Source of the DNA: a virus
Virus record (IMG/VR): IMGVR_UViG_3300031730_000017
Span: 1-33,340 of that record
DNA: 33,340 nt
Reading direction: 5' to 3' (one strand)
This document shows positions 16,619-33,340 of this stretch, in pieces. A program made the translations under genes and the position numbers. The notes beneath the pieces are model-generated. The model made no database searches, was not told where the DNA came from, and was given only the letters and a program-made list of their open reading frames with translations. How positions within the stretch are numbered: the stretch's first letter is position 1; every line of letters starts with the position of its first letter.

Positions 16619-17098
16619 TCATTCCTTCAGTTCAGTAGATAGTTGCTTGATTAGGTCTGCCGCTGCCTTCTTGAGCACGTCATCTGGCACGGTTTCGTAT
16701 TGGATCGGGCCACCGTTGGCGCCTGTGTGTTCTTGTGTCACTTTCTCGCCGTAGTCAGCGGGCGCAATCTTGGTAGCCCGCCAGCGTAGGTGATGGGCCG
16801 CTTCCTTCGCTTTAGCCAGCTCGAATGGATCAGCAGCACTCTCAATGCCCTGTAACGCCTTCTCGTCCCACATACGAGACGTGACTCGCCTAGCCTCTCT
16901 CGCACGTGCGGAACGTTCAGGGATCGCCTCTAGCCACGTCTGAAGCGTCCCGAACGACACCCCAATCGCAGCGCAGATATGGGTCAGCGGTTCACCGTCG
17001 CAGATGCGTTCACATATGCGGTCGATACCCTCAGCGTCTAGTAGCGCTTGAGCAGGGGCTACACCGTTCCCGCCTGCGTTAACCTGATTTTTAGACAT
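16619..17098 (-). CDS. Terminase small subunit
   Basis: 159 residues. TerS binds the packaging site and regulates TerL. The N-terminal third holds an HTH-like segment (RICERICDGEPLTHICAAIG, then VSFGTLQTWL). The C-terminal half carries AKAKEAAHHLRWRATKIAPA followed by YGEK, a pattern seen in Sf6-type small terminases. I chose the ATG at 17098 because it overlaps the upstream stop as ATGTCTAA with GGA just upstream. An in-frame ATG at 17134 would add 12 residues but has no Shine-Dalgarno. A homing endonuclease gene lies directly upstream. Confidence 0.8.
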   Translation of the reverse strand: MSKNQVNAGGNGVAPAQALLDAEGIDRICERICDGEPLTHICAAIGVSFGTLQTWLEAIPERSARAREARRVTSRMWDEKALQGIESAADPFELAKAKEAAHHLRWRATKIAPADYGEKVTQEHTGANGGPIQYETVPDDVLKKAAADLIKQLSTELKE

Positions 17099-17615
17099 TC
17101 TTCCAGCACTTATAGGATTTCGGGTCTTCGGCATACAGATCGCGCATGTGCTGCCTGATGCTTTCAGCTTTCTCTGTCGCGCCAGCTCTTATGTACCCTT
17201 TCAGGGACCAACTATACCCATCAATGAGTACAGCTTCCTTCGTATTCCTTTTTGCCTCGTAATCGCCATTACGCAACTTGGCTAGGGTTTTTCGCCCGTT
17301 CTCACTGCGCACTTCTGGGGGACAAAACGGTTGACCCCCGCCTTCTGCCATATTCAGTAAGTCATACCCAGCGGCCTTACCGGAAGCGATGTAGAACTTC
17401 TCTCTGGACTGCCATTCTGCGCAGTTTTCCTCAATCACCACGCAGTCGGGCTCTAGCCCATTAGCGGCTAGCTTCCTAATCCACGCATACAGTGGGGTGT
17501 TCCGATTGCGGCTATCCCGAATGTGTCCAGCAAAACGTGTGCGGACGCAGTTCGCTTTCCCTATGTACCGAAGCGCACCGGTATCGGGGTGTATAAGGGC
17601 GTAGATATCAGCCAC
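17091..17615 (-). CDS. GIY-YIG homing endonuclease (free-standing, short)
   Basis: 174 residues. Mobile DNA endonuclease. The GIY-YIG module is visible at the N-terminus: IYAL (4-7), RYIGK (16-20), Arg25/Arg27 and H31, catalytic-type E72 in SREKFYI, and N88 in LLNMAEGGG. The C-terminal 80 residues are a short basic DNA-binding part. The start is GTG at 17615 with GAGG 7 bases upstream, overlapping the upstream stop (GTGGCTGA). A TTG two codons earlier is less likely. It sits just before TerS, a usual kind of target (conserved packaging gene). A second, larger paralogue occurs in the lysis module. Confidence 0.88.
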   Translation of the reverse strand: MADIYALIHPDTGALRYIGKANCVRTRFAGHIRDSRNRNTPLYAWIRKLAANGLEPDCVVIEENCAEWQSREKFYIASGKAAGYDLLNMAEGGGQPFCPPEVRSENGRKTLAKLRNGDYEAKRNTKEAVLIDGYSWSLKGYIRAGATEKAESIRQHMRDLYAEDPKSYKCWKNV

Positions 17616-17841
17616 GAACAATCCTCAACACCCTACCCAATTCCCTACCAATCTCATCCTCTACCGTCTGGGACGCCCCGGCACAGATGAGGTTTATCGC
17701 CCCATTCAGAGGCCAGCGGCTGTCTACAGCCATGTGGGGCCATGTGGTGTGGTACATGCGTTCTACCTTTGACAGTTCTTCGCGGACCTGGGGGATAAAG
17801 CTGATTGCGGTCTGTTCTGTTCTAGCGGTGCAGTCGGTCAT
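17608..17841 (-). CDS. Small hypothetical protein next to endonuclease
   Basis: 77 residues from the ATG at 17841, two bases after the stop of the fibre-like gene. A TTG further upstream would only add residues inside that stop region. It is soluble, with helical ends and ERMYHTTWPHMAVDSRWPLN in the middle. No domain is recognised. It ends inside the start of the GIY-YIG gene, so it may be the original neighbour of TerS before the endonuclease inserted. Confidence 0.6.
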   Translation of the reverse strand: MTDCTARTEQTAISFIPQVREELSKVERMYHTTWPHMAVDSRWPLNGAINLICAGASQTVEDEIGRELGRVLRIVRG

Positions 17842-19769: not shown

Positions 19770-20155
19770 GACTTGTCAGATACTTTAGGCGGGATAGGCG
19801 GGGGATCGCCGGCAACCTTGGCAACCTCGATAACTGAATCATTGTTCTGTTTCTTGTTCACTGCATACCCAACGATCCACATTCCGCCCCATGCCGCAAG
19901 CTCAATCGCGCCGGCACGCCCAGCTATCATCAGGAAAACGATTCCCCAGCCTGTCACGATAAACGCACCCGCTTGGAATAGTTTGTTGCTAGCGAGACGG
20001 CCATTATCCGCCGTAACCACATCGAAGCACTGGATAAGTGGATTGCGACGCTGCTCGATTATCCACATAACACAGATGGCAGCAATGATAACCAAGAGCG
20101 CGAACATGGCGACAGTTTCGCGTGTGAGCCATTCCGGTAGATCAGGGATGTTCAC
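19766..20155 (-). CDS. Holin candidate, three membrane segments
   Basis: 129 residues from a GTG (GTGA overlap with the endonuclease stop). Hydrophobic segments lie at about 15-34, 61-78 and 83-99, with a charged C-terminal tail rich in Pro, Lys and Asp. Size, topology and position just before Rz/Rz1 suit a class I-like holin that would release the lysozyme. The loop NPLIQCFDVVTADNGRLASN between TM1 and TM2 is a pattern I have seen in other small phage membrane proteins. Other small membrane proteins in this cassette could be the holin instead. Confidence 0.6.
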   Translation of the reverse strand: MNIPDLPEWLTRETVAMFALLVIIAAICVMWIIEQRRNPLIQCFDVVTADNGRLASNKLFQAGAFIVTGWGIVFLMIAGRAGAIELAAWGGMWIVGYAVNKKQNNDSVIEVAKVAGDPPPIPPKVSDKS

Positions 20156-20994
20156 TTAGGCTCATCATCCATTCTTTCGCGCGCCGGTCCATTATAGCGC
20201 TCTGGTAGCTTACGCGAGAAATCACTAATTGTGAGTGATTCTTTCCCAATCAGATGTTTATTAAATCGGCGCCTGACAGCAGACGGATTCATACCAACTT
20301 CTTGCGCGATGTCCTTTACCCACCGCTTCACACCGTCCACTACGATCACTACTGTGTTTGGGTTTAGCAAGCCCTTTCTCCCGGCAATCTTTGCTCTAAA
20401 TTCCGGGTCCTTCCACAATTCTCGGTGACGATCAGCTTTCCTGAGCCGCTGCTCTTGAGTAAGGTTCATAGGAACCCCGAGCTGCGCATTGCTCTGTTTC
20501 TGTCGCGCTTCCGGGGAAGCCTTTCTACCAAGCTGATTAGGAGGGTTTGTTTTTAGCCACTCGCGAGTCTTCATTGACAGCTTCTCTCGCACATCTGGCG
20601 GCGTCACCCTTCCAAAGTTAGGATGCCTCTCGCCAGTGATCGCCCTGAGCTTGTCCTTCATCGCCTCGGAATGCCGAAACCCAGCTGTAGACTCTCCGCC
20701 AGGAAGAATGTTCAGCAATTTAGCCCCAAGGCCGCGAAACTGTGCGATCCAGTAAACCTCACCTTCCATCAGTTCGGCGTGCGATTCGTATCGTTCAATC
20801 TCCATTAGGACGGGGCGTTTACCTTGCCCTAGAAGCCGACTTATCCACCCTAGAACCTTCGGCCTTTTCTTACGTCTAGCTGATGAAATGTGATTAGATA
20901 GGCGCGTTTCTCCGCGATAAACCGTCTGCCCTACGTATCTAGCTAGTTTCGTATCCGGGTCAAGTAAGGCATAGACAATCATGGCGTCAGCCAC
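20152..20994 (-). CDS. GIY-YIG homing endonuclease with NUMOD-type repeats and C-terminal HTH
   Basis: 280 residues. GIY-YIG catalytic domain: VYAL (7-10), RYVG (19-22), H35, E79 in MEGEVYWIAQF, N95 in LLNILPGG. Residues of about 105-175 hold NUMOD3-like segments (HSEAMKDKL, HPNFGR, SPEARQKQS) that help DNA recognition. Residues 228-244 (KDIAQEVGMNPSAVRRR) form an HTH. The GTG start has GAGG 8 bases upstream, and the codons GTGGCTGA match those starting the other endonuclease at 17615. It interrupts the lysis genes between lysozyme and holin candidate. It looks complete, so mobility is possible. Confidence 0.9.
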   Translation of the reverse strand: MADAMIVYALLDPDTKLARYVGQTVYRGETRLSNHISSARRKKRPKVLGWISRLLGQGKRPVLMEIERYESHAELMEGEVYWIAQFRGLGAKLLNILPGGESTAGFRHSEAMKDKLRAITGERHPNFGRVTPPDVREKLSMKTREWLKTNPPNQLGRKASPEARQKQSNAQLGVPMNLTQEQRLRKADRHRELWKDPEFRAKIAGRKGLLNPNTVVIVVDGVKRWVKDIAQEVGMNPSAVRRRFNKHLIGKESLTISDFSRKLPERYNGPARERMDDEPK

Positions 20995-22459: not shown

Positions 22460-22713
22460 GGGTCCGGGCACACACTATGCTCAGGAGCTTGTCCGAGCAT
22501 GCAGGCAATTAGATCGTCGCGGTTGATGGCTCCGGCGTTTGCTGAGGACAGGAGCAGTGCGATGGCGACGAAGGCCCGCACGATATGCTTGTTCTTCGCG
22601 ATCTTTCGTTCCCAGATTGGATGATCGAGCAAATACGGGACGACACCATTGCGCTTACCACGCGCAGACCTTTCACGGTTTACGGCTTGTCGAATCTCTT
22701 TCGCTGCTTTCAT
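22456..22713 (-). CDS. Small membrane protein, first gene of late/lysis operon
   Basis: 85 residues from the ATG at 22713, which has AAGGA 7 bases upstream. The open frame runs further 5' without a good start and with poor, hairpin-rich sequence, so I reject the longer version. A basic N-terminus (1-43) is followed by a membrane segment at 44-61 (IVRAFVAIALLLSS, ending ANAGA) and a short tail with three acidic residues and two Cys. It may sit in the inner membrane. The function is unknown. Confidence 0.65.
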   Translation of the reverse strand: MKAAKEIRQAVNRERSARGKRNGVVPYLLDHPIWERKIAKNKHIVRAFVAIALLLSSANAGAINRDDLIACMLGQAPEHSVCPDP

Positions 22714-22734
22714 GGGCTTCCTTGCTGAATAGGT

Positions 22735-22792
22735 GGCCCGCCACCCTGCGGGAGATTCACAGGGGCGGGCCTCGGCTGAGGGGAACAGCCGA
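22735..22792 (-). promoter_or_regulatory. Structured leader: two adjacent hairpins before the lysis operon
   Basis: The stretch 22714-22905 holds no convincing gene. Minus-strand structures: TCGGCTG-7-CAGCCGA (22772-22792) and GGCCCGC...GCGGGCC (22735-22771) with an inner CCCTG/CAGGG helix and a 2-base bulge. Neither has a T-run, so they look like a folded 5' leader or processing site rather than terminators. The TATAGA at about 22846 could be a -10 box, but no good -35 is seen. Confidence 0.4.
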
Positions 22793-22905
22793 AAGGGATA
22801 AGGGTGTCGTCTGGCAGCTGGATCGCTAAGGCTTGGCTCTATACCCCGCAACCGCTCATCTAGCCAGCTCGAAAGGCCGGATTGCTCACGACACGGAAAA
22901 GGAAA

Positions 22906-22923
22906 CGCCCCGGTTAAGGGGCG
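22906..22923 (-). terminator. Terminator-like hairpin ending the early/junction transcripts
   Basis: CGCCCC and GGGGCG pair around a 6-base TTAACC loop, and the minus-strand continuation is TTTCCTTTTCC. It lies 8 bases after the stop of the small ORF at 22932. It would stop early transcription before the lysis operon. The T-run is interrupted, so strength is uncertain. Confidence 0.5.
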
Positions 22924-22931
22924 CTGTTGGT

Positions 22932-23129
22932 TCAAGCCGGCATGGGAGTGATTGGCTCTCGTGCCTCCCGCCGTATAGCTACTAAGTAGCGCCGACTTCC
23001 AGCAGCATCGTCCGCTGGTACTGCCTCTACAGGCTTGATTGAGGATGACCGGCGCTGATCCCCGGCTTCACTGGTTATCGTCGGAAGTGCTTGCCAGTTT
23101 CTGTCTCTAGTCCGCCACATGTTGCGCAT
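22932..23129 (-). CDS. Possible small basic protein at early/late junction
   Basis: 65 residues from an ATG without a clear Shine-Dalgarno. The N-terminus is basic and Trp/Arg-rich (MRNMWRTRDRNW), and the C-terminus Arg/Pro-rich. It lies between a 65-base hairpin and a terminator-like hairpin, so it may be a coding gene with a structured leader, or the segment may be a non-coding RNA with a chance open frame. Confidence is low because the translation has little recognisable character. Confidence 0.4.
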   Translation of the reverse strand: MRNMWRTRDRNWQALPTITSEAGDQRRSSSIKPVEAVPADDAAGSRRYLVAIRREAREPITPMPA

Positions 23130-23146
23130 CAGCCTGCGCTACATCC

Positions 23147-23211
23147 TCAAGTAGCTTACCTCCAGCGAGGCCCTCCGCATGCGCATTTGGAGTGAAGGTC
23201 AAGCTACTTGA
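23147..23211. other. Long inverted repeat (65-base hairpin)
   Basis: TCAAGTAGCTT (23147-23157) and AAGCTACTTGA (23201-23211) are perfect complements. Inside, ACC pairs with GGT after a single-base bulge, and CTCCA with TGGAG, leaving a GC-rich loop with GCATGC. It lies in the 154-base gap between genes. It could be a transcript-folding element, a protein-binding site or part of an origin. Confidence 0.7.
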
Positions 23212-23283
23212 ACATGCAACGTCACCATCCGGCGACTATACAAATCTACAGGGTTCAGAGCGCCCGTGCAACTGTTTTCTGTG

Positions 23284-23508
23284 TTATCGCACAACCTTTA
23301 CGGGCTCACGGTGGACATAACTCAGCCCGCCCGGAAGCGCCCAAACCGACGAAGTTCCGTAAACCCTCGGCTTCGGTAGCTTCGTGTACGAAAGCGGCCC
23401 ACAGTGTTCAACCTGTATAGGCATTCGCATCCCGAATAACTCAAGGTGGGGAATGAAACCTATGCAGGTTTGTGTTCCGCGAACCTTTTCACCTTCGATC
23501 ATTACCAT
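23284..23508 (-). CDS. Small hypothetical protein
   Basis: 74 residues. The ATG at 23508 has GAGG 5 bases upstream and overlaps the end of the preceding gene by 7 bases. A second ATG at 23502 forms TAATG. The protein is neutral to basic, with aromatic and Pro residues (PIQVEHCGPLSYTKLPKPRV, VWALPGGLSYVHREP) and no known domain. A weak promoter-like sequence (TTGCAC-17-TAGATT, or TATAGT) follows its stop. The function is unknown. Confidence 0.55.
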   Translation of the reverse strand: MVMIEGEKVRGTQTCIGFIPHLELFGMRMPIQVEHCGPLSYTKLPKPRVYGTSSVWALPGGLSYVHREPVKVVR

Positions 23509-23987
23509 TCTGGCCTCTTTGCGTTACTGGCTGCGGTTTCTATGGAATCGTGAAGAATTGCAACTATGTCGTTTTCCAGGGCAGCGAAGTCAGAACCGCG
23601 CATCTTCGCTATCTTCGCTCGGTCCCGAGATTGGTCTAGGTGTCGGCGTCCTAATGACAGTAGGGCAAATTCCGAATACAGGACGCTTCTAGCGATCCAT
23701 ACCCTACCCTTGAGTCTTCGGTAGATCAGCGGTTTCAACCGGCTTAGAACGTCCGCCAGTAGCGAATTCGTTAGGGCGGTTATCGTGTCTGCGCCTACCG
23801 GCCTATGGGTTGCTGCCAATAGCGCCGCATCGGCCCACAATCGGGCTATCGGCTCACTGTTTCCGCAAGCCAGATTCCCGACAACCTCAGTAGCCGCCTC
23901 ACCCCGCAAGTCAGAACCGCAGCGGGATAGTTGTTCTAAACGGCTTCGTGGTGCCCTAGCTTGGAAGACTTCGGTTTGCGGTTCCAT
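23502..23987 (-). CDS. Hypothetical helical protein
   Basis: 161 residues from the ATG at 23987, which has AGGAG 5 bases upstream. An upstream TTG would extend the frame into a strong hairpin and is less likely. The protein is Ala/Leu/Arg-rich and helical, with LKPLIYRRLKGRVWIARSVL in the middle and a C-terminal acidic helix. No known motif is visible. A 57-base inverted repeat lies just upstream of the ribosome-binding site, so expression may be regulated through it. Confidence 0.65.
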   Translation of the reverse strand: MEPQTEVFQARAPRSRLEQLSRCGSDLRGEAATEVVGNLACGNSEPIARLWADAALLAATHRPVGADTITALTNSLLADVLSRLKPLIYRRLKGRVWIARSVLYSEFALLSLGRRHLDQSRDRAKIAKMRGSDFAALENDIVAILHDSIETAASNAKRPEW

Positions 23988-24004
23988 TCCCTCTCCTGGA
24001 ATAG

Positions 24005-24061
24005 CCTCGCCGTTGGTTTGTTCCTGAGTCGCAGCCAGCAAACCCAGGGCCAACGGCGAGG
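24005..24061. other. Perfect 12-base inverted repeat with inner extension
   Basis: CCTCGCCGTTGG (24005-24016) and CCAACGGCGAGG (24050-24061) are perfect complements separated by 33 bases. Inside, TTTG pairs with CAAA, offset by a 7-base asymmetric bulge. It lies in the gap 23988-24092, directly before the Shine-Dalgarno of the 161-residue gene. There is no T-run, so a terminator is unlikely. A leader structure or protein-binding site is more likely. Confidence 0.75.
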
Positions 24062-24092
24062 TTGGCTGCTGCCGCCAATGCGCGGCAGTTGA

Positions 24093-24341
24093 TTATCCCG
24101 CGCATGTATTGCGGTTTGCAACATGATTTTGCTTTCTGCAATCTGGGGATTGCCGCCCAAGCCAAGTGTTGTACTTCTCGATATCACCGCGATTCTTGGC
24201 CCTCAGTGCTGAGCGCTTCTGTCGCTTGGACTTACGAATCACCTTTACCTGTTTAAGTCGCTCGTCTTTGCGTGCGTAAGCCTTGAACCGCTGCTCTTTG
24301 CGCTGGCGAGTTTTGGCCTTTTTATCGCGACCGGCTGACAT
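24093..24341 (-). CDS. Small, very basic protein (nucleic-acid binding?)
   Basis: 82 residues from the ATG at 24341, which has AAAGGA 6 bases upstream. A longer in-frame version from about 24422 has no ribosome-binding site. Lys and Arg dominate residues 5-50 (GRDKKAKTRQRKEQRFKAYA and on), with little hydrophobic core until IEKYNTWLGRQ. Such composition suggests RNA or DNA binding, for example a transcription antiterminator or nucleoid-like protein. No domain is recognised. Confidence 0.65.
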   Translation of the reverse strand: MSAGRDKKAKTRQRKEQRFKAYARKDERLKQVKVIRKSKRQKRSALRAKNRGDIEKYNTWLGRQSPDCRKQNHVANRNTCAG

Positions 24342-24715
24342 AATTTTCCTTTCGAGTGCGCAAGCCCCTTTTCCCGTGGAAGCTCCCCGCCTTGCTTGTG
24401 CTCTGGCTCTTGAGGGTTCCATGGTACTCAGCGTTCCCGTCTGTCTCACGACAGCTTGTCGGCGTTTCGACAAAGGCAGGGACGTGATAAGCGTCCTTTC
24501 CACGGCGCTCGTTGCAAGGGGTCAGCAGCGCGAGCGATTTGTTTGTGTCCGCAACATCTTTGGTGACTTGCCGGGAATGTAAGCCCGCATGACTAACGGG
24601 AGCCGTGCCGGCGATTGAGGAAAGTGCTTGCAAATGAGTACCAAATCGGTATCCTTTCCACACTTCTCTTGTTCGCACCACGAGAGTACCGCTAACACAC
24701 CTGCGGTTGCAACTC
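24342..24715. other. About 370-base stretch without a confident gene
   Basis: No frame shows convincing coding character. One minus-strand frame stays open from a GTG at 24663 to a TAA at 24322 (113 residues) but has no Shine-Dalgarno and an odd composition. A folded element occurs at 24570-24612: GCCGG/CCGGC enclosing a CCCG/CGGG hairpin. A near-dyad GTACCAAATCGGTATC (24638-24653) resembles the GTACC-AAAT-GGTAC dyad at 16269-16282. The stretch may hold a late-gene promoter or a small RNA. Confidence 0.4.
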
Positions 24716-24752
24716 CGAAGCCCCTGCCGCAATGGTCGGGGCTTCGTCTTTT
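24716..24752 (+). terminator. Intrinsic-terminator-like hairpin oriented for plus-strand transcription
   Basis: CGAAGCCCC (24716-24724) and GGGGCTTCG (24738-24746) form a perfect 9-bp stem with a 13-base loop, followed on the plus strand by TCTTTTC. On the minus strand, the direction of the genes, the downstream side has no T-run. It overlaps the stop of the 59-residue gene. It could stop antisense transcription or simply end or stabilise the early mRNA. Confidence 0.6.
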
Positions 24753-25828: not shown

Positions 25829-26263
25829 TCAGTCGTGTTCGTATTCTTCGACTTCGATCCCTTCGCGGGTAACGAAGACTTGGACATGATCGCCGAACGC
25901 CTCTTCGAGCACGTCATGCATTCCGCTGAGCGCGTCGCTTAGCTCGTTGAGTGCAGCCCACGCCTCGGCAGAGAACCCATCTGGCACTTTCTTGTTGTAA
26001 GAGGAAATGTACTCAAACCCTTCATCCTCTTCGCCTTCTTCTTCAGTAGACTTGTTGCTGCGAACGTATATATCCCCGACGCTGAACACGCAAGGCTCGC
26101 CGTCGTTGAAATATGGTGTGTACTGAGTCCATTTGACCTTTTCCACTTCATCGAATTTGAACACACTCAGGATGGCAGGCGTAAGCAGCGTTTTAGCCTC
26201 TTCGATATACTTCGCCTTAGCCGCAGCGGCTTGTCCTGCAATAGCTTTCAACTGGTCAAACAT
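25829..26263 (-). CDS. Conserved phage protein of unknown function (acidic)
   Basis: 144 residues, ATG with AGGAGA 7 bases upstream. A helical N-terminus (MFDQLKAIAGQAAAAKAKYI) is followed by VEKVKWTQYTPYFNDGEPC, a motif I recall from many myophage and other phage proteins of unknown function. It is very acidic after residue 70 (STEEEGEEDEGFEYIS). Its role is unknown. The resemblance is from pattern memory and not a search. Confidence 0.7.
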   Translation of the reverse strand: MFDQLKAIAGQAAAAKAKYIEEAKTLLTPAILSVFKFDEVEKVKWTQYTPYFNDGEPCVFSVGDIYVRSNKSTEEEGEEDEGFEYISSYNKKVPDGFSAEAWAALNELSDALSGMHDVLEEAFGDHVQVFVTREGIEVEEYEHD

Positions 26264-26272
26264 GGTTCTCTC

Positions 26273-26629
26273 CTAGTCGTGGTTTTCAAAAGAAATAACG
26301 CGTGTGCGTTTTACAGTCCCGCTCATCCACCCCTCAATCGGCATCGTCCCTAACCACCTTTCCAGTGTTGGGATAAACCCCAAGTCCTGCAAAACGTGGT
26401 CCTCTGCTACGTCCCGAACGCTTACCAGCTTCCCGTCTGAATTCGTGATCGTGTCGCCAAACACCTTGGCGCAGAGGTATATTCCCCATGCTGAGTGCAG
26501 AATGGCGCGGTGCCGAACATCCGCTATTGCGATCTTCGTTGAGTCAATGAACTCGTGGATAGCCGAATAGTCCACAATCTGGCCACCGTACTTTTTAACA
26601 CTCAACCGTCCATGAAGGTGCGGTTTCAT
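26273..26629 (-). CDS. DUF6915-like protein
   Basis: 118 residues. The ATG at 26629 has AAGGGG 5 bases upstream. A longer frame starting 13 codons earlier lies inside the upstream small gene. The pattern MKPHLHGRLSVKKYGGQIVD, then HEFIDSTKIAIADVRHRAIL and EDLG-like VLQDLGFIPTLERWL, resembles a family with conserved His residues (H4, H6, plus HRA) sometimes annotated DUF6915. The conserved His and Asp could bind metal, but no activity is known. Confidence 0.65.
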   Translation of the reverse strand: MKPHLHGRLSVKKYGGQIVDYSAIHEFIDSTKIAIADVRHRAILHSAWGIYLCAKVFGDTITNSDGKLVSVRDVAEDHVLQDLGFIPTLERWLGTMPIEGWMSGTVKRTRVISFENHD

Positions 26630-26796
26630 TTCATCCCCTTGCGCTTGTCTGGTTCCTTGATTCCGCATGCCTTCCGATACGCGGCCCTACGCTCTAAGCG
26701 TTCTTTCTCGGTTGAACCCATCAGTGCCCAGGCTTGTTCTTGAGTGAATGGAACCCAGGCGGGATCGCGTTCGTAGCAGCCGGGCTTGACTTGCAT
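26626..26796 (-). CDS. 56-residue hypothetical protein after SSB
   Basis: Short gene from ATG 26796, which overlaps the SSB stop by one base (TGATG), to TGA at 26626. The product is basic and helical, with PAWVPFTQEQAWALMGSTEK and a Lys/Arg-rich end (ERRAAYRKACGIKEPDKRKG). It has no recognised domain. The junctions to SSB and to the following gene support it as real. Confidence 0.65.
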   Translation of the reverse strand: MQVKPGCYERDPAWVPFTQEQAWALMGSTEKERLERRAAYRKACGIKEPDKRKGMK

Positions 26797-28889: not shown

Positions 28890-29006
28890 CTAAATATCTT
28901 CAAGGCAAGTCGCGTGACACGGGTCGCCATCTTCAGCGTAGGCGACAACATCGTCTTCCTCGAAATCCTTCCCACAGATAACACACGGACAGTCAGGCGG
29001 TTTCAT
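28890..29006 (-). CDS. Mini zinc-binding protein (38 residues), second copy
   Basis: From ATG 29006, overlapping the preceding gene by 14 bases, to TAG at 28890. The product has C8-x2-C11-G and C30-H31-x2-C34, with the same 18-residue spacing between the pairs as the gene at 27933. The linker is acidic (FEEDDVVAYAEDGDP). The two are likely paralogues. It ends at the edge of the repeated leader. The function is unknown. Confidence 0.7.
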   Translation of the reverse strand: MKPPDCPCVICGKDFEEDDVVAYAEDGDPCHATCLEDI

Positions 29007-29313: not shown

Positions 29314-29477
29314 TCAGCCCTCCATGAACGTCCGTGGCGTGCTCGCGCTTCCCATGCTTGCCACATCTTCTGCGCTACATTGTCGCGGAAGCTGTACCCG
29401 TCGCGACGCAAGCGAACGCCAGGAATGCAGCTAGCAAACCTTATAAAGTGTGCAATTTCTGCGTCCCAGTCGATCAT
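29307..29477 (-). CDS. 56-residue hypothetical protein
   Basis: From ATG 29477, overlapping the upstream stop (ATGA), to TGA at 29307, which lies inside the next start region. The product is basic with many Trp and Arg: VRLRRDGYSFRDNVAQKMWQ, AWEARARHGRSWRAEW. It matches no named motif, although the 'W-x-AWEAR' end is common in small phage proteins. Junctions support it. Confidence 0.65.
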   Translation of the reverse strand: MIDWDAEIAHFIRFASCIPGVRLRRDGYSFRDNVAQKMWQAWEARARHGRSWRAEW

Positions 29478-29752
29478 GCTGTTACCTCATCAGGATTCCA
29501 CACGCAGCGTTCGTCGGACCATTCGAGAGTTTCGGGTCGGTCAAGGATAGGCTCAATCTGCCAATCCATCGCAACCGCAGGACGCCCGTATCGAGTCACG
29601 ATGCCTATTCCAACGACATGCAGGAACCATCCGAGCAACCCGTTCGTTTCGAGCTGACCACGCTTCACAATAGTTGCCTCGCGGCCAACGAGTGCTGGGT
29701 CACTAGCCATAACAATCCTCACTCTCTGCCCTGCTCGGAATGAAGCGTTCAT
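29474..29752 (-). CDS. Hypothetical protein with KOW-like start
   Basis: 92 residues, coupled to its neighbours by ATGA overlaps. Residues 5-32 (FRAGQRVRIVMASDPALVGR, then EATIVKRG) resemble a small SH3-like KOW motif, used to bind RNA or proteins. The rest is mixed beta with aromatic residues (WFLHVVGIGIVTRYG, AMDWQIEPIL). The function is unknown. The KOW comparison is weak. Confidence 0.6.
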   Translation of the reverse strand: MNASFRAGQRVRIVMASDPALVGREATIVKRGQLETNGLLGWFLHVVGIGIVTRYGRPAVAMDWQIEPILDRPETLEWSDERCVWNPDEVTA

Positions 29753-30456: not shown

Positions 30457-30665
30457 GGCTTGTTCCCAGTAACCGCCCTGCGGTTCCACGTATCAACAAC
30501 CATTTGCCGGAACGCTGACCAGCCCGTGCTAATCCCACAATTACTGCACGCCACACAGTGCGTAGGTGTAGCCATGTCGGAATCTTTGTACATCAACACA
30601 GATTGCCCACAGCACGGGCATGGCAATAGTCCGGGAGACGCATCCAAATTCTTTTCCATCTTCAT
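30453..30665 (-). CDS. Lar-like restriction-alleviation zinc protein
   Basis: 70 residues. It has two zinc knuckles, C16-x2-C19 (LPCPCCG) and C40-x2-C43 (VACSNCG), and the terminal WNRR at 60-63, the typical Lar-family layout. Lar from the Rac prophage eases type I restriction by altering host restriction-modification activity, so this protein may help the phage survive host defence. The molecular target of this protein is not shown. ATGA coupling occurs upstream and downstream. Confidence 0.7.
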   Translation of the reverse strand: MKMEKNLDASPGLLPCPCCGQSVLMYKDSDMATPTHCVACSNCGISTGWSAFRQMVVDTWNRRAVTGNKP

Positions 30666-30892
30666 GCCTTAACCTCTTGGATTCCGCAATTAAGCATTTC
30701 CACTATGCGTTGCGCAAGTTCCGGGTGATCGCCATCCACGGTTATAGGCGCGTACTTCTGCCCGTCCGCAAACCTGCACTCAATCGAGTAGTGCGAAACG
30801 CCGTCATCATCAACCGCAAGGCGAACCGTGGCGAACTCAACCGGGTTCCTTGGTGGCTCAAAGTTCTTGTCTAGGACAAAATTAATGCTCAT
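30662..30892 (-). CDS. Small hypothetical protein
   Basis: 76 residues, ATG start. The protein has beta strands with aromatic residues (VEFATVRLAVDDDGVSHYSI, ECRFADGQKYAPITVDG) and a C-terminal helix (HPELAQRIVEMLNCG). It looks like a small alpha+beta fold. No family is recognised. Coupling to the Lar-like gene may mean related timing, nothing more. Confidence 0.6.
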   Translation of the reverse strand: MSINFVLDKNFEPPRNPVEFATVRLAVDDDGVSHYSIECRFADGQKYAPITVDGDHPELAQRIVEMLNCGIQEVKA

Positions 30893-31225: not shown

Positions 31226-31462
31226 TCAACCTTCCTTATGGGGAAGCGGAGCCCACCACTGCGGATACCATTCGCTAGCGTTGTGATGTCCTTCCGGCAT
31301 TGGGAAGCACGCAACGGAACGCACCTTGTCACGATGCGAAGGCCCGTAAACTGGGATTACCTGCCAACTAGTGATTGCGAAGTAATCGCCGTCATAGCAG
31401 ATGATTTCCGTTCCATCCTTCGGAGCGGTCTCGATTGGTAGAAGTTCCTGCTTCGATTTCAC
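31226..31462 (-). CDS. Small conserved phage protein with ETAPKDGTEI motif
   Basis: 78 residues from a GTG inside the repeated leader, with AGGAGGGG upstream. PIETAPKDGTEII and the end WYPQWWAPLP form a pattern seen in many short phage proteins (some annotated DUF551-like). No activity is known. The leader shared with the gene at 28445 suggests parallel expression control. Confidence 0.65.
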   Translation of the reverse strand: MKSKQELLPIETAPKDGTEIICYDGDYFAITSWQVIPVYGPSHRDKVRSVACFPMPEGHHNASEWYPQWWAPLPHKEG

Positions 31463-31487
31463 AACCCCTCCTATAGCCCCAGGTTTG
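31459..31487 (-). repeat. 29-base direct repeat leader (copy 2)
   Basis: This block is identical over 29 bases to 28861-28889 and includes the Shine-Dalgarno and the GTG start of the downstream gene (31226-31462). The sequence diverges at once on both sides. A recent duplication or a functional constraint on a promoter and ribosome-binding unit could explain the exact match. Confidence 0.8.
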
Positions 31488-31506
31488 TTAGGGGCGGTGT
31501 CGGATA

Positions 31507-31734
31507 CTATGCTTTCGGCGTCATGATTTTCCCGAGTCCACCAAACCCATCCGAAGGCTCAATCCCGTCCTTCTGGCATTCGTGGTCGTTCTTGATCGCT
31601 TTCGGCATTTCGTGCTCAACGAGATACTTGATTGCCTCAGCAACTGCGCCAGCGTGCCCAATCTTCATGGCGCTGAAGCGTTCTGTCCGTGCTGCCCCAA
31701 AACTGCCCTGAATCGTGATCGTAATCATTCCCAT
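31507..31734 (-). CDS. Small hypothetical protein
   Basis: 75 residues. The ATG at 31734 has AGGAGA 7 bases upstream, and an internal ATG follows two codons later. The N-terminus is a beta strand (MITITIQGSFGA) followed by an alpha part (AGAVAEAIKYLVEHEMPKAI) and a Gly-rich end. No family is recognised. It is the gene after the ribbon-helix-helix regulator, within the same early group. Confidence 0.6.
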   Translation of the reverse strand: MGMITITIQGSFGAARTERFSAMKIGHAGAVAEAIKYLVEHEMPKAIKNDHECQKDGIEPSDGFGGLGKIMTPKA

Positions 31735-31743
31735 GGTCTTCTC

Positions 31744-31878
31744 CTAAAGTCCCAACTCTTTGAGATACCTGTCTATCGCATTCCGTATGTTCTCGGCCAT
31801 CGTCAGACCCGTTTTCTTTACCGCAAGCCTCAGACGCTTAAACATTGACTCGGTGTAGTAGATACTGGTTCGTTTCAT
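31744..31878 (-). CDS. Ribbon-helix-helix regulator (44 residues)
   Basis: The protein begins MKRTSIYYTE, a beta strand for DNA contact, followed by helix MFKRLRLAVKKTG and helix MAENIRNAIDRYLKELG, the layout of CopG/Arc-type RHH repressors. It likely dimerises and binds short palindromes. The ATG has no Shine-Dalgarno, and a promoter -10 box lies only 8 bases upstream, so the mRNA may be leaderless. An 11-base palindrome overlaps that box, suggesting autoregulation. No other function is implied. Confidence 0.75.
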   Translation of the reverse strand: MKRTSIYYTESMFKRLRLAVKKTGLTMAENIRNAIDRYLKELGL

Positions 31879-31883
31879 GTGCG

Positions 31884-32066
31884 CTAGTATGGCATACGTG
31901 GCGGGGGAGTCAAGAGAATTTTTGACTGCCTCGGAAGATGTTCGGAAACCAGCGCATGTCGCGCATCAGCCACTTCCTGACTGGTAGCGAAGTCCTTAGC
32001 GTCGATCCTTCGGCACAGCCGATCTACCTCGGGAACGCGAGAGCGGAGCTTATCGAAATTGCTCAT
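31884..32066 (-). CDS. 60-residue hypothetical protein downstream of helicase
   Basis: From ATG 32066, with GAGGA 9 bases upstream, overlapping the helicase stop by 17 bases, to TAG at 31884. The product is charged and helical (SNFDKLRSRVPEVDRLCRRI, then DAKDFATSQEVADARHALVS) with a Pro-rich end. The last codons overlap the RHH promoter. No family is recognised. Confidence 0.55.
   Translation of the reverse strand: MSNFDKLRSRVPEVDRLCRRIDAKDFATSQEVADARHALVSEHLPRQSKILLTPPPRMPY
31886..31913 (-). promoter_or_regulatory. Promoter with palindromic operator upstream of the RHH gene
   Basis: The minus-strand -35 is TTGACT (31908-31913), and the -10 CATACT (31886-31891) follows after a 16-base spacer. 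The palindrome GTATG-g-CATAC (31887-31897) overlaps the -10 box. A regulator gene starts at 31878, so RHH autoregulation is the simplest reading. The sequence lies inside the 3' end of the preceding gene. Confidence 0.6.
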
Positions 32067-33340
32067 TGCGCGGTTTCCTCTTGAAGCCTTCCTGCTTGAC
32101 TGGGGGTTCTTTCACTGGCGGAAAGTACGGTTCGGACTCAAAAACCGTCATGATGTGCATTGCGGAATTCCAGTGCAGCGTGCCCACCTTTCCGCCGCGC
32201 AGTTTCCGGATGAATGCTTTCGTGTATCCGATTGGAGTAGGTGAATTATCGTCTTCGTAATACCTCGGACGGTGAAGCATGATGATCCCGTCAGCGTCCT
32301 CTTCGATTCGGCCAGACTCGCGAAGATCAACCATGTGCGGCTCTTTCCCGGCGCCGTCGCGGTTCAACTGGCAGAGACACAGAACCGGAATGTTTAATCT
32401 TTTTGCGAGCCCCTTAAGCGCCTTCGTGACCAAGCCTATTTGCCGCGCAACGTTCTTGTTATCGTCGATATCCACAAGTCCCAAGTGATCCACGATCAGC
32501 AGAGACAGCGGACTCGCAGCGTGTAACTGCATCGTGCGCGCCTCGATACTGGCGAGCCTTTGGGTAGCAGAGTCGTCAATGAAGATCGGCCATTCTTGGA
32601 TGCGCTCGATTGCAGCCGTGATCTTGGCCCAAGTTTCCTCTGGCGCTTTGACCGGGTTCTCAATGTGCGACGAATCCACATGAGCATCGGCAGACAAGAA
32701 CCTATCCGACCATTCATCGGAAGCCATTTCGAGACTGAAAATCAGAACACGCTTGTTCGCCTTACCAGCCGCCGCCGCTATGTGGCCGGCAACCATTGAT
32801 TTCCCCATACTCGGGCGAGCCGCCAGGATGTAGAGCTTTTTAGGCTGTAGCCCGCTTGTAGCGGCGTTTAGCGAGGGGATTCCGGTATCCAGTCCAGATA
32901 GATCGCGCCCGTTCAATCCGTCTTGGTAGCGTTCGTGAATGCGGGTTAGCGATACCTTCACAGCCTGTTTAGCGCTCATCACAGCCCGAGAGTCAACGGG
33001 CATGGTGTCAGACAGTAAGCGTCTAGCCTCTTCGGTGACTTGTTCGATAGTCCGCCCCTCGGGACTATGGGCCAGTTTTCCGATTGCCGTGCTGGCGTCC
33101 AGTAGGCGGCGTAGCGTGGCCTTCTCGGCAACAATAGCGGCATAGGCCCGAATGTTCGCCGCGCTCGGGGTGGTGTTCGCCAAGTGAAGGATGTATTTCT
33201 GTCCACCGACAAGCTCGTCAATCCCTTGAGACTCAAACCATTCGCCCATGGTTACAGCGTCAGGGTCTTGCCCAGATTTGATCTTGTCGCCAATCGCCTG
33301 CCAGATTAGCCGGTGATCCTTGCGCCAGAAGTCTTGCTCT
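32050..33340 (-). CDS. Replicative DNA helicase, DnaB-like (5' end outside window)
   Basis: The frame is open to the window edge with 429 codons visible. Reading upstream of the in-frame Met at 33249 gives the end of a DnaB N-domain (EQDFWRKDHRLIWQAI), so the gene starts beyond the edge. Counting from that Met: Walker A ARPSMGKS (144-151), SLEM (172-175), Walker B LLIVDH (250-255), QLNR (294-297) and the arginine-finger region DLRESGRIEEDAD (308-320). It unwinds DNA at the phage fork as a hexamer. No primase or loader is visible in the window. Confidence 0.93.
   Translation of the reverse strand, partial: EQDFWRKDHRLIWQAIGDKIKSGQDPDAVTMGEWFESQGIDELVGGQKYILHLANTTPSAANIRAYAAIVAEKATLRRLLDASTAIGKLAHSPEGRTIEQVTEEARRLLSDTMPVDSRAVMSAKQAVKVSLTRIHERYQDGLNGRDLSGLDTGIPSLNAATSGLQPKKLYILAARPSMGKSMVAGHIAAAAGKANKRVLIFSLEMASDEWSDRFLSADAHVDSSHIENPVKAPEETWAKITAAIERIQEWPIFIDDSATQRLASIEARTMQLHAASPLSLLIVDHLGLVDIDDNKNVARQIGLVTKALKGLAKRLNIPVLCLCQLNRDGAGKEPHMVDLRESGRIEEDADGIIMLHRPRYYEDDNSPTPIGYTKAFIRKLRGGKVGTLHWNSAMHIMTVFESEPYFPPVKEPPVKQEGFKRKPRNEQFR

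Follow-up and report, generated by a model that had tools for sequence, protein, structure and literature searches.

Directly 3' of dnaB, a virus fragment recorded as IMGVR_UViG_3300031730_000017 carries a small gene that, judged by its sequence, encodes a DNA-binding protein and joins the RHH repressors as a new member. The window analysed here is the whole of that record, 33,340 bases. The gene is real, and we give an even chance to the account that it is a small gene of the replication operon, expressed through operon transcription and coupling to the ORF before it. The main competing account gives it its own leaderless message, repressed by its own product. The two readings, such a message or read-through with the neighbours, are close to each other.

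The RHH ORF, read from 31878 to 31744 on the minus strand (MKRTSIYYTESMFKRLRLAVKKTGLTMAENIRNAIDRYLKELGL), encodes 44 residues, and its assignment to the RHH class in a preliminary description was borne out. Residues 3-40 aligned to positions 1-38 of the Pfam RHH_1 profile (PF01402; 38 of 39 positions covered) with an E value of 1.9e-4 and a score of 21.7 bits, passing the gathering cut-off of 20.5. PHROG matches were to families named 'transcriptional repressor' and 'Arc-like repressor'. The codon score exceeded those of all 95 spurious ORFs, a clear coding signal. The protein is similar in size to the CopG/Arc-type repressors (Pfam RHH_1), CopG having 45 and Arc 53 residues; profile alignment places an N-terminal strand, RTSIYYTE, ahead of two helices as in those proteins, and the phage context is shared with Arc. 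The likeness to CopG and Arc is a family-level sequence match with no close homologue. A single-sequence AlphaFold2 monomer, with no alignment behind the model, gave one long helix (pLDDT 80, pTM 0.45); the RHH strand-helix-helix fold forms only as a dimer. Like CopG and Arc, it most likely acts as a dimer that represses at least one promoter of the phage.

The source of the record is a tailed phage, a virus of bacteria, and the minus strand carries nearly all of its genes. From the right-hand end leftward these are a DnaB-type helicase (cut), small early genes, an SSB-like protein, a phage lysozyme, the terminase and portal, and the tail region. The dnaB frame stays open to the record end (33249-33340), and the sequence preceding the replication operon is absent. 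Since the record is cut within dnaB, the usual early regulatory region is out of view; an early promoter and additional targets of the RHH protein are to be expected in that absent stretch, and the part of the genome that is missing probably holds the targets of this protein. Within the collections searched, the phage is an orphan. IMG/VR searches returned no close relatives of the RHH, 60-aa, 75-aa or TerL proteins, and the best DnaB and TerL relatives were about 41% and 38% identical, respectively. Across 1.6 Mb of fetched loci, phmmer found no RHH relative save one bacterial match, an 89-aa ORF in which 27 residues align at 63% identity. At the DNA level no kin of the operon turned up, the matches being only 42-62 nt long.

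Table 1. Features at and around the RHH gene, in positions of the window.
Feature	Position	Strand	Basis or remark
RHH (CopG/Arc-type) DNA-binding protein ORF, 44 aa	31744..31878	-	Pfam RHH_1, PHROG repressor families, codon score
Downstream ORF, 75 aa, function not known	31507..31734	-	Its SD overlaps the RHH stop codon
Upstream 60-aa ORF	31884..32066	-	SD present; overlaps dnaB stop; 3' end holds the putative promoter
DnaB-type replicative helicase	32050..33339	-	Pfam DnaB_C 4.6e-65; NCBIfam phage_DnaB; 5' end cut by record end
Putative -35 box TTGACT (5/6)	31908..31913	-	Consensus match only
Putative -10 box CATACT (4/6), TG extension	31886..31891	-	Consensus match only
Predicted leaderless transcription start, should the promoter be active	31878..31880	-	Inferred from -10 spacing
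Palindrome GTATG-n-CATAC, possible single-dimer operator	31887..31897	.	Perfect copy once in record

The gene had been described as a self-contained module; it lies instead in a tightly packed, one-way operon, with gaps of 5 nt to the preceding ORF and 9 nt to the following one. The preceding 60-aa ORF begins at an SD of -6.0 kcal/mol and ends at a TAG (31886-31884) shortly ahead of the RHH ATG at 31878. Its coding score was ambiguous, with 9.5% of the spurious ORFs scoring higher. Coding bias was worst over its last 15 codons, the stretch of the putative promoter, where it fell to non-coding values (-0.18 against a gene-tail mean of 0.27; one of 37 tails was as low). Searches for relatives found no homologue of the 60-aa ORF and no convincing homologue of the 75-aa ORF downstream of the RHH gene. 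The idea that frameshifting fuses the 60-aa ORF with RHH was set aside, since inspection by eye showed no classical slippery heptamer.

The start of the RHH gene has no Shine-Dalgarno sequence, as had been stated: the best anti-SD pairing was +0.5 kcal/mol, compared with -3 to -11 kcal/mol for most genes. Among the starts listed it is the sole clear one that neither has an SD nor overlaps the gene before it; the GTG start at 28984 counts as uncertain in this survey. The remaining clear SD-poor starts (1910-2116, 2113-2712, 29474-29752 and 30662-30892) are all -4 overlaps, for which coupling is expected. Just before the RHH ATG the reported promoter-like pair is present, TTGACT and CATACT separated by a 16-nt spacer, with a TG at the extended -10 position and the -10 ending 7 nt short of the ATG, a geometry that fits a leaderless message. 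The perfect palindrome GTATGGCATAC, GTATG-c-CATAC on the minus strand, covers the -10, also as described. The TG extension is not independent evidence, because GTATG-N-CATAC forces the TG. The putative -10 sits in the last codons of the 60-aa ORF, whose TAG supplies the final T of the box. The proposed placement of the promoter inside the end of an upstream gene is right as to position; coding support for that gene is ambiguous. On a simple promoter matrix applied to both strands, the site ranked third overall and first among those that stand at the start of a gene. The RNA fold near the ATG was unremarkable (z -1.0), and Rfam and tRNA scans were empty.

Taken singly, the DNA elements occur at the level expected by chance. 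Between 24000 and 33340 there were 5 promoter-like sites (5.6 +/- 2.5 expected). Palindromes of the 5-1-5 form numbered 29 (about 34 expected), and a -10-overlapping palindrome accompanies about 8-9% of chance promoter sites. Copies of the palindrome with at most two mismatches numbered 7 against 7.8 expected, a chance level that argues against a regulon. The search of the record for the palindrome, which had been suggested as a check, returned the one perfect copy, so that no second copy marks any target promoter; 'early timing switch', like 'self-contained module', exceeds the evidence. The operator claim is likewise weakened, the palindrome being a single copy with 5-bp arms on a chance-level background and having no second half-site or repeat adjoining its 11 bp.

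Operon transcription and coupling would proceed as follows. The RHH gene would be co-transcribed with the replication operon, and its SD-less ATG would be reached mainly by ribosomes terminating on the 60-aa ORF, by termination-reinitiation or through local unfolding; the TTGACT/CATACT pair and the palindrome may then be chance matches in the codons of the upstream ORF. With that ORF's stop only 5 nt upstream, operon coupling is a sufficient account of expression; if the 60-aa ORF is not translated, coupling fails. The short gaps on both sides, the overlaps at the other SD-poor starts, the chance-level frequency of each DNA element and the single palindrome copy support coupling, whereas the singular character of the RHH start, the weak coding signal of the 60-aa ORF and the rank of the site on the promoter matrix speak against it. 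At short positive gaps, +2 nt cost 5, 20 and 70% of reinitiation in three E. coli pairs (PMC10666635). Removal of the SD lowered reinitiation by 60-90% in three of five E. coli pairs, and the SD was essential in a fourth (PMC6728339). For gene VII of phage f1, rescue of a defective start through coupling is cited in PMC12548453 (Ivey-Hoyle & Steege 1989).

A leaderless, autoregulated RHH gene is a tentative possibility: an extended -10 promoter in the 3' end of the upstream ORF would start the message at the ATG, and an RHH dimer would block its own promoter at GTATG-c-CATAC, with operon read-through perhaps adding to expression. What argues for it is the conjunction of the elements, taken as a promoter match of at least 9/12, a -10 ending 4-10 nt before the start and an overlapping palindrome with 5-bp arms. 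Under a first-order Markov model, a 9/12 site in leaderless geometry has a chance of 0.002 per start and 0.12 over 57 starts; with the palindrome over the -10 these fall to 1.5e-4 and 0.008. Synonymous resampling of the upstream codons, amino acids kept, gave 0.05 for the site and 0.0066 for site plus palindrome, and only 9 of 22,249 control ATGs (0.04%) in the fetched related loci showed the conjunction. These odds beyond chance are suggestive, not proof, all having been computed post hoc, after the pattern was seen. Leaderless-geometry promoters were not enriched at the 1246 ORF starts of the related loci (0.24%, compared with 0.27% of control ATGs), the module pattern had no match in the viral contigs of IMG/VR, and there is no close relative for a conservation test. 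The fading of codon bias across the promoter stretch, the lack of both SD and overlap at the RHH start, and the rank of the site on the promoter matrix fit the leaderless account.

Precedents exist for a promoter so placed. In two phage-type regulators with leaderless messages, lambda cI (transcribed from PRM) and PaaR2, a -10 likewise stands immediately before the ATG and there is no SD; the PaaR2 start was mapped by 5' RACE (PMC8630535). Both differ from the present case in being non-RHH proteins with divergent, intergenic control regions and mapped starts, whereas the RHH site lies inside an operon and is predicted only. Tn1721 tetR and CvkR are further leaderless cases from mobile elements, and CvkR showed no autoregulation (PMC9938897). 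A cI-like mode of expression is possible for the RHH gene. Binding to the own promoter is common among RHH proteins, as in SvtR and AvtR (PMC5569661) and RelB (PMC2812701). At relO, one RelB dimer covers a 12-bp palindrome within an operator spanning about -10 to +17; autoregulation by an RHH protein, established for RelB and putative here, is the shared feature. Repression by RelB needs two adjacent palindromes, however (PMC2812701), whereas one is seen here, and this phage operon shows no RelE-like toxin. The operator of another RHH protein, E. coli NikR, has a GTATGA half-site that contains GTATG/CATAC (PMC4486848); its half-sites, to which a tetramer binds, are widely separated, whereas here they are 1 nt apart, and the common 5-mer may be a coincidence. 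As with relO, CopG/Arc-family operators differ from the single 5-1-5 palindrome in being two-dimer sites, and RHH operators in general usually hold two dimer sites. The full picture, a minimal RHH autorepressor made from a leaderless mRNA with promoter and operator within the last codons and stop of the preceding gene, in parallel with lambda cI/PRM, is conceivable and somewhat doubtful. If true, the phage would possess a very compact switch that limits itself, and the regulators of mobile elements (lambda cI, Tn1721 tetR, PaaR2, CvkR) would gain one more tie to leaderless translation; if not, the gene is a routine one for a small DNA-binding protein within a phage operon. On RHH expression, either answer would be fairly ordinary.

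An unlikely arrangement pairs a real leaderless promoter with a palindrome that does not serve as the operator of the RHH protein, this protein acting elsewhere, for example in the missing region upstream of dnaB. The cut within dnaB and the frequency with which palindromes fall on the -10 of chance promoter sites are consistent with that arrangement; nothing positive points to another operator. Less probable still is an antitoxin or partition protein in place of a plain regulator. RHH domains are common in antitoxins, and there is weak similarity to ParG (Pfam 0.013; PDB 1p94, E 1.3). Both roles are disfavoured. With 44 residues, no C-terminal tail is left for toxin binding, and partner genes are lacking, no neighbour having a match to a toxin, ParA/ParF or defence family.

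Several features elsewhere in the window were recorded in passing. An intergenic hairpin, GCCCC-10-GGGGC (31463-31506), lies just upstream of the strong SD (AGGAGGGG) of a 78-aa ORF at 31226-31462; its fold was no better than those of shuffles. About 2.3 kb (22472-24751) hold no convincing minus-strand gene in a genome packed elsewhere, the four minus-strand ORFs inside having no Pfam match. By eye, two minus-strand ORFs (17091-17621 and 20152-20994) resemble GIY-YIG homing endonucleases at their starts (IYALIHPDTGALRYIGKA; IVYALLDPDTKLARYVGQT), and one of them overlaps the start of a small-terminase-like gene (16619-17134). The early region also encodes a DUF6915 protein of function not known (26273-26668, minus strand; Pfam E 5e-40). 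Within a 144-aa ORF (25829-26263), positions 26079-26140 match many genes of Streptomyces and Gordonia phages at 79-90% DNA identity over 42-62 nt, a match that stands out in an otherwise orphan genome.
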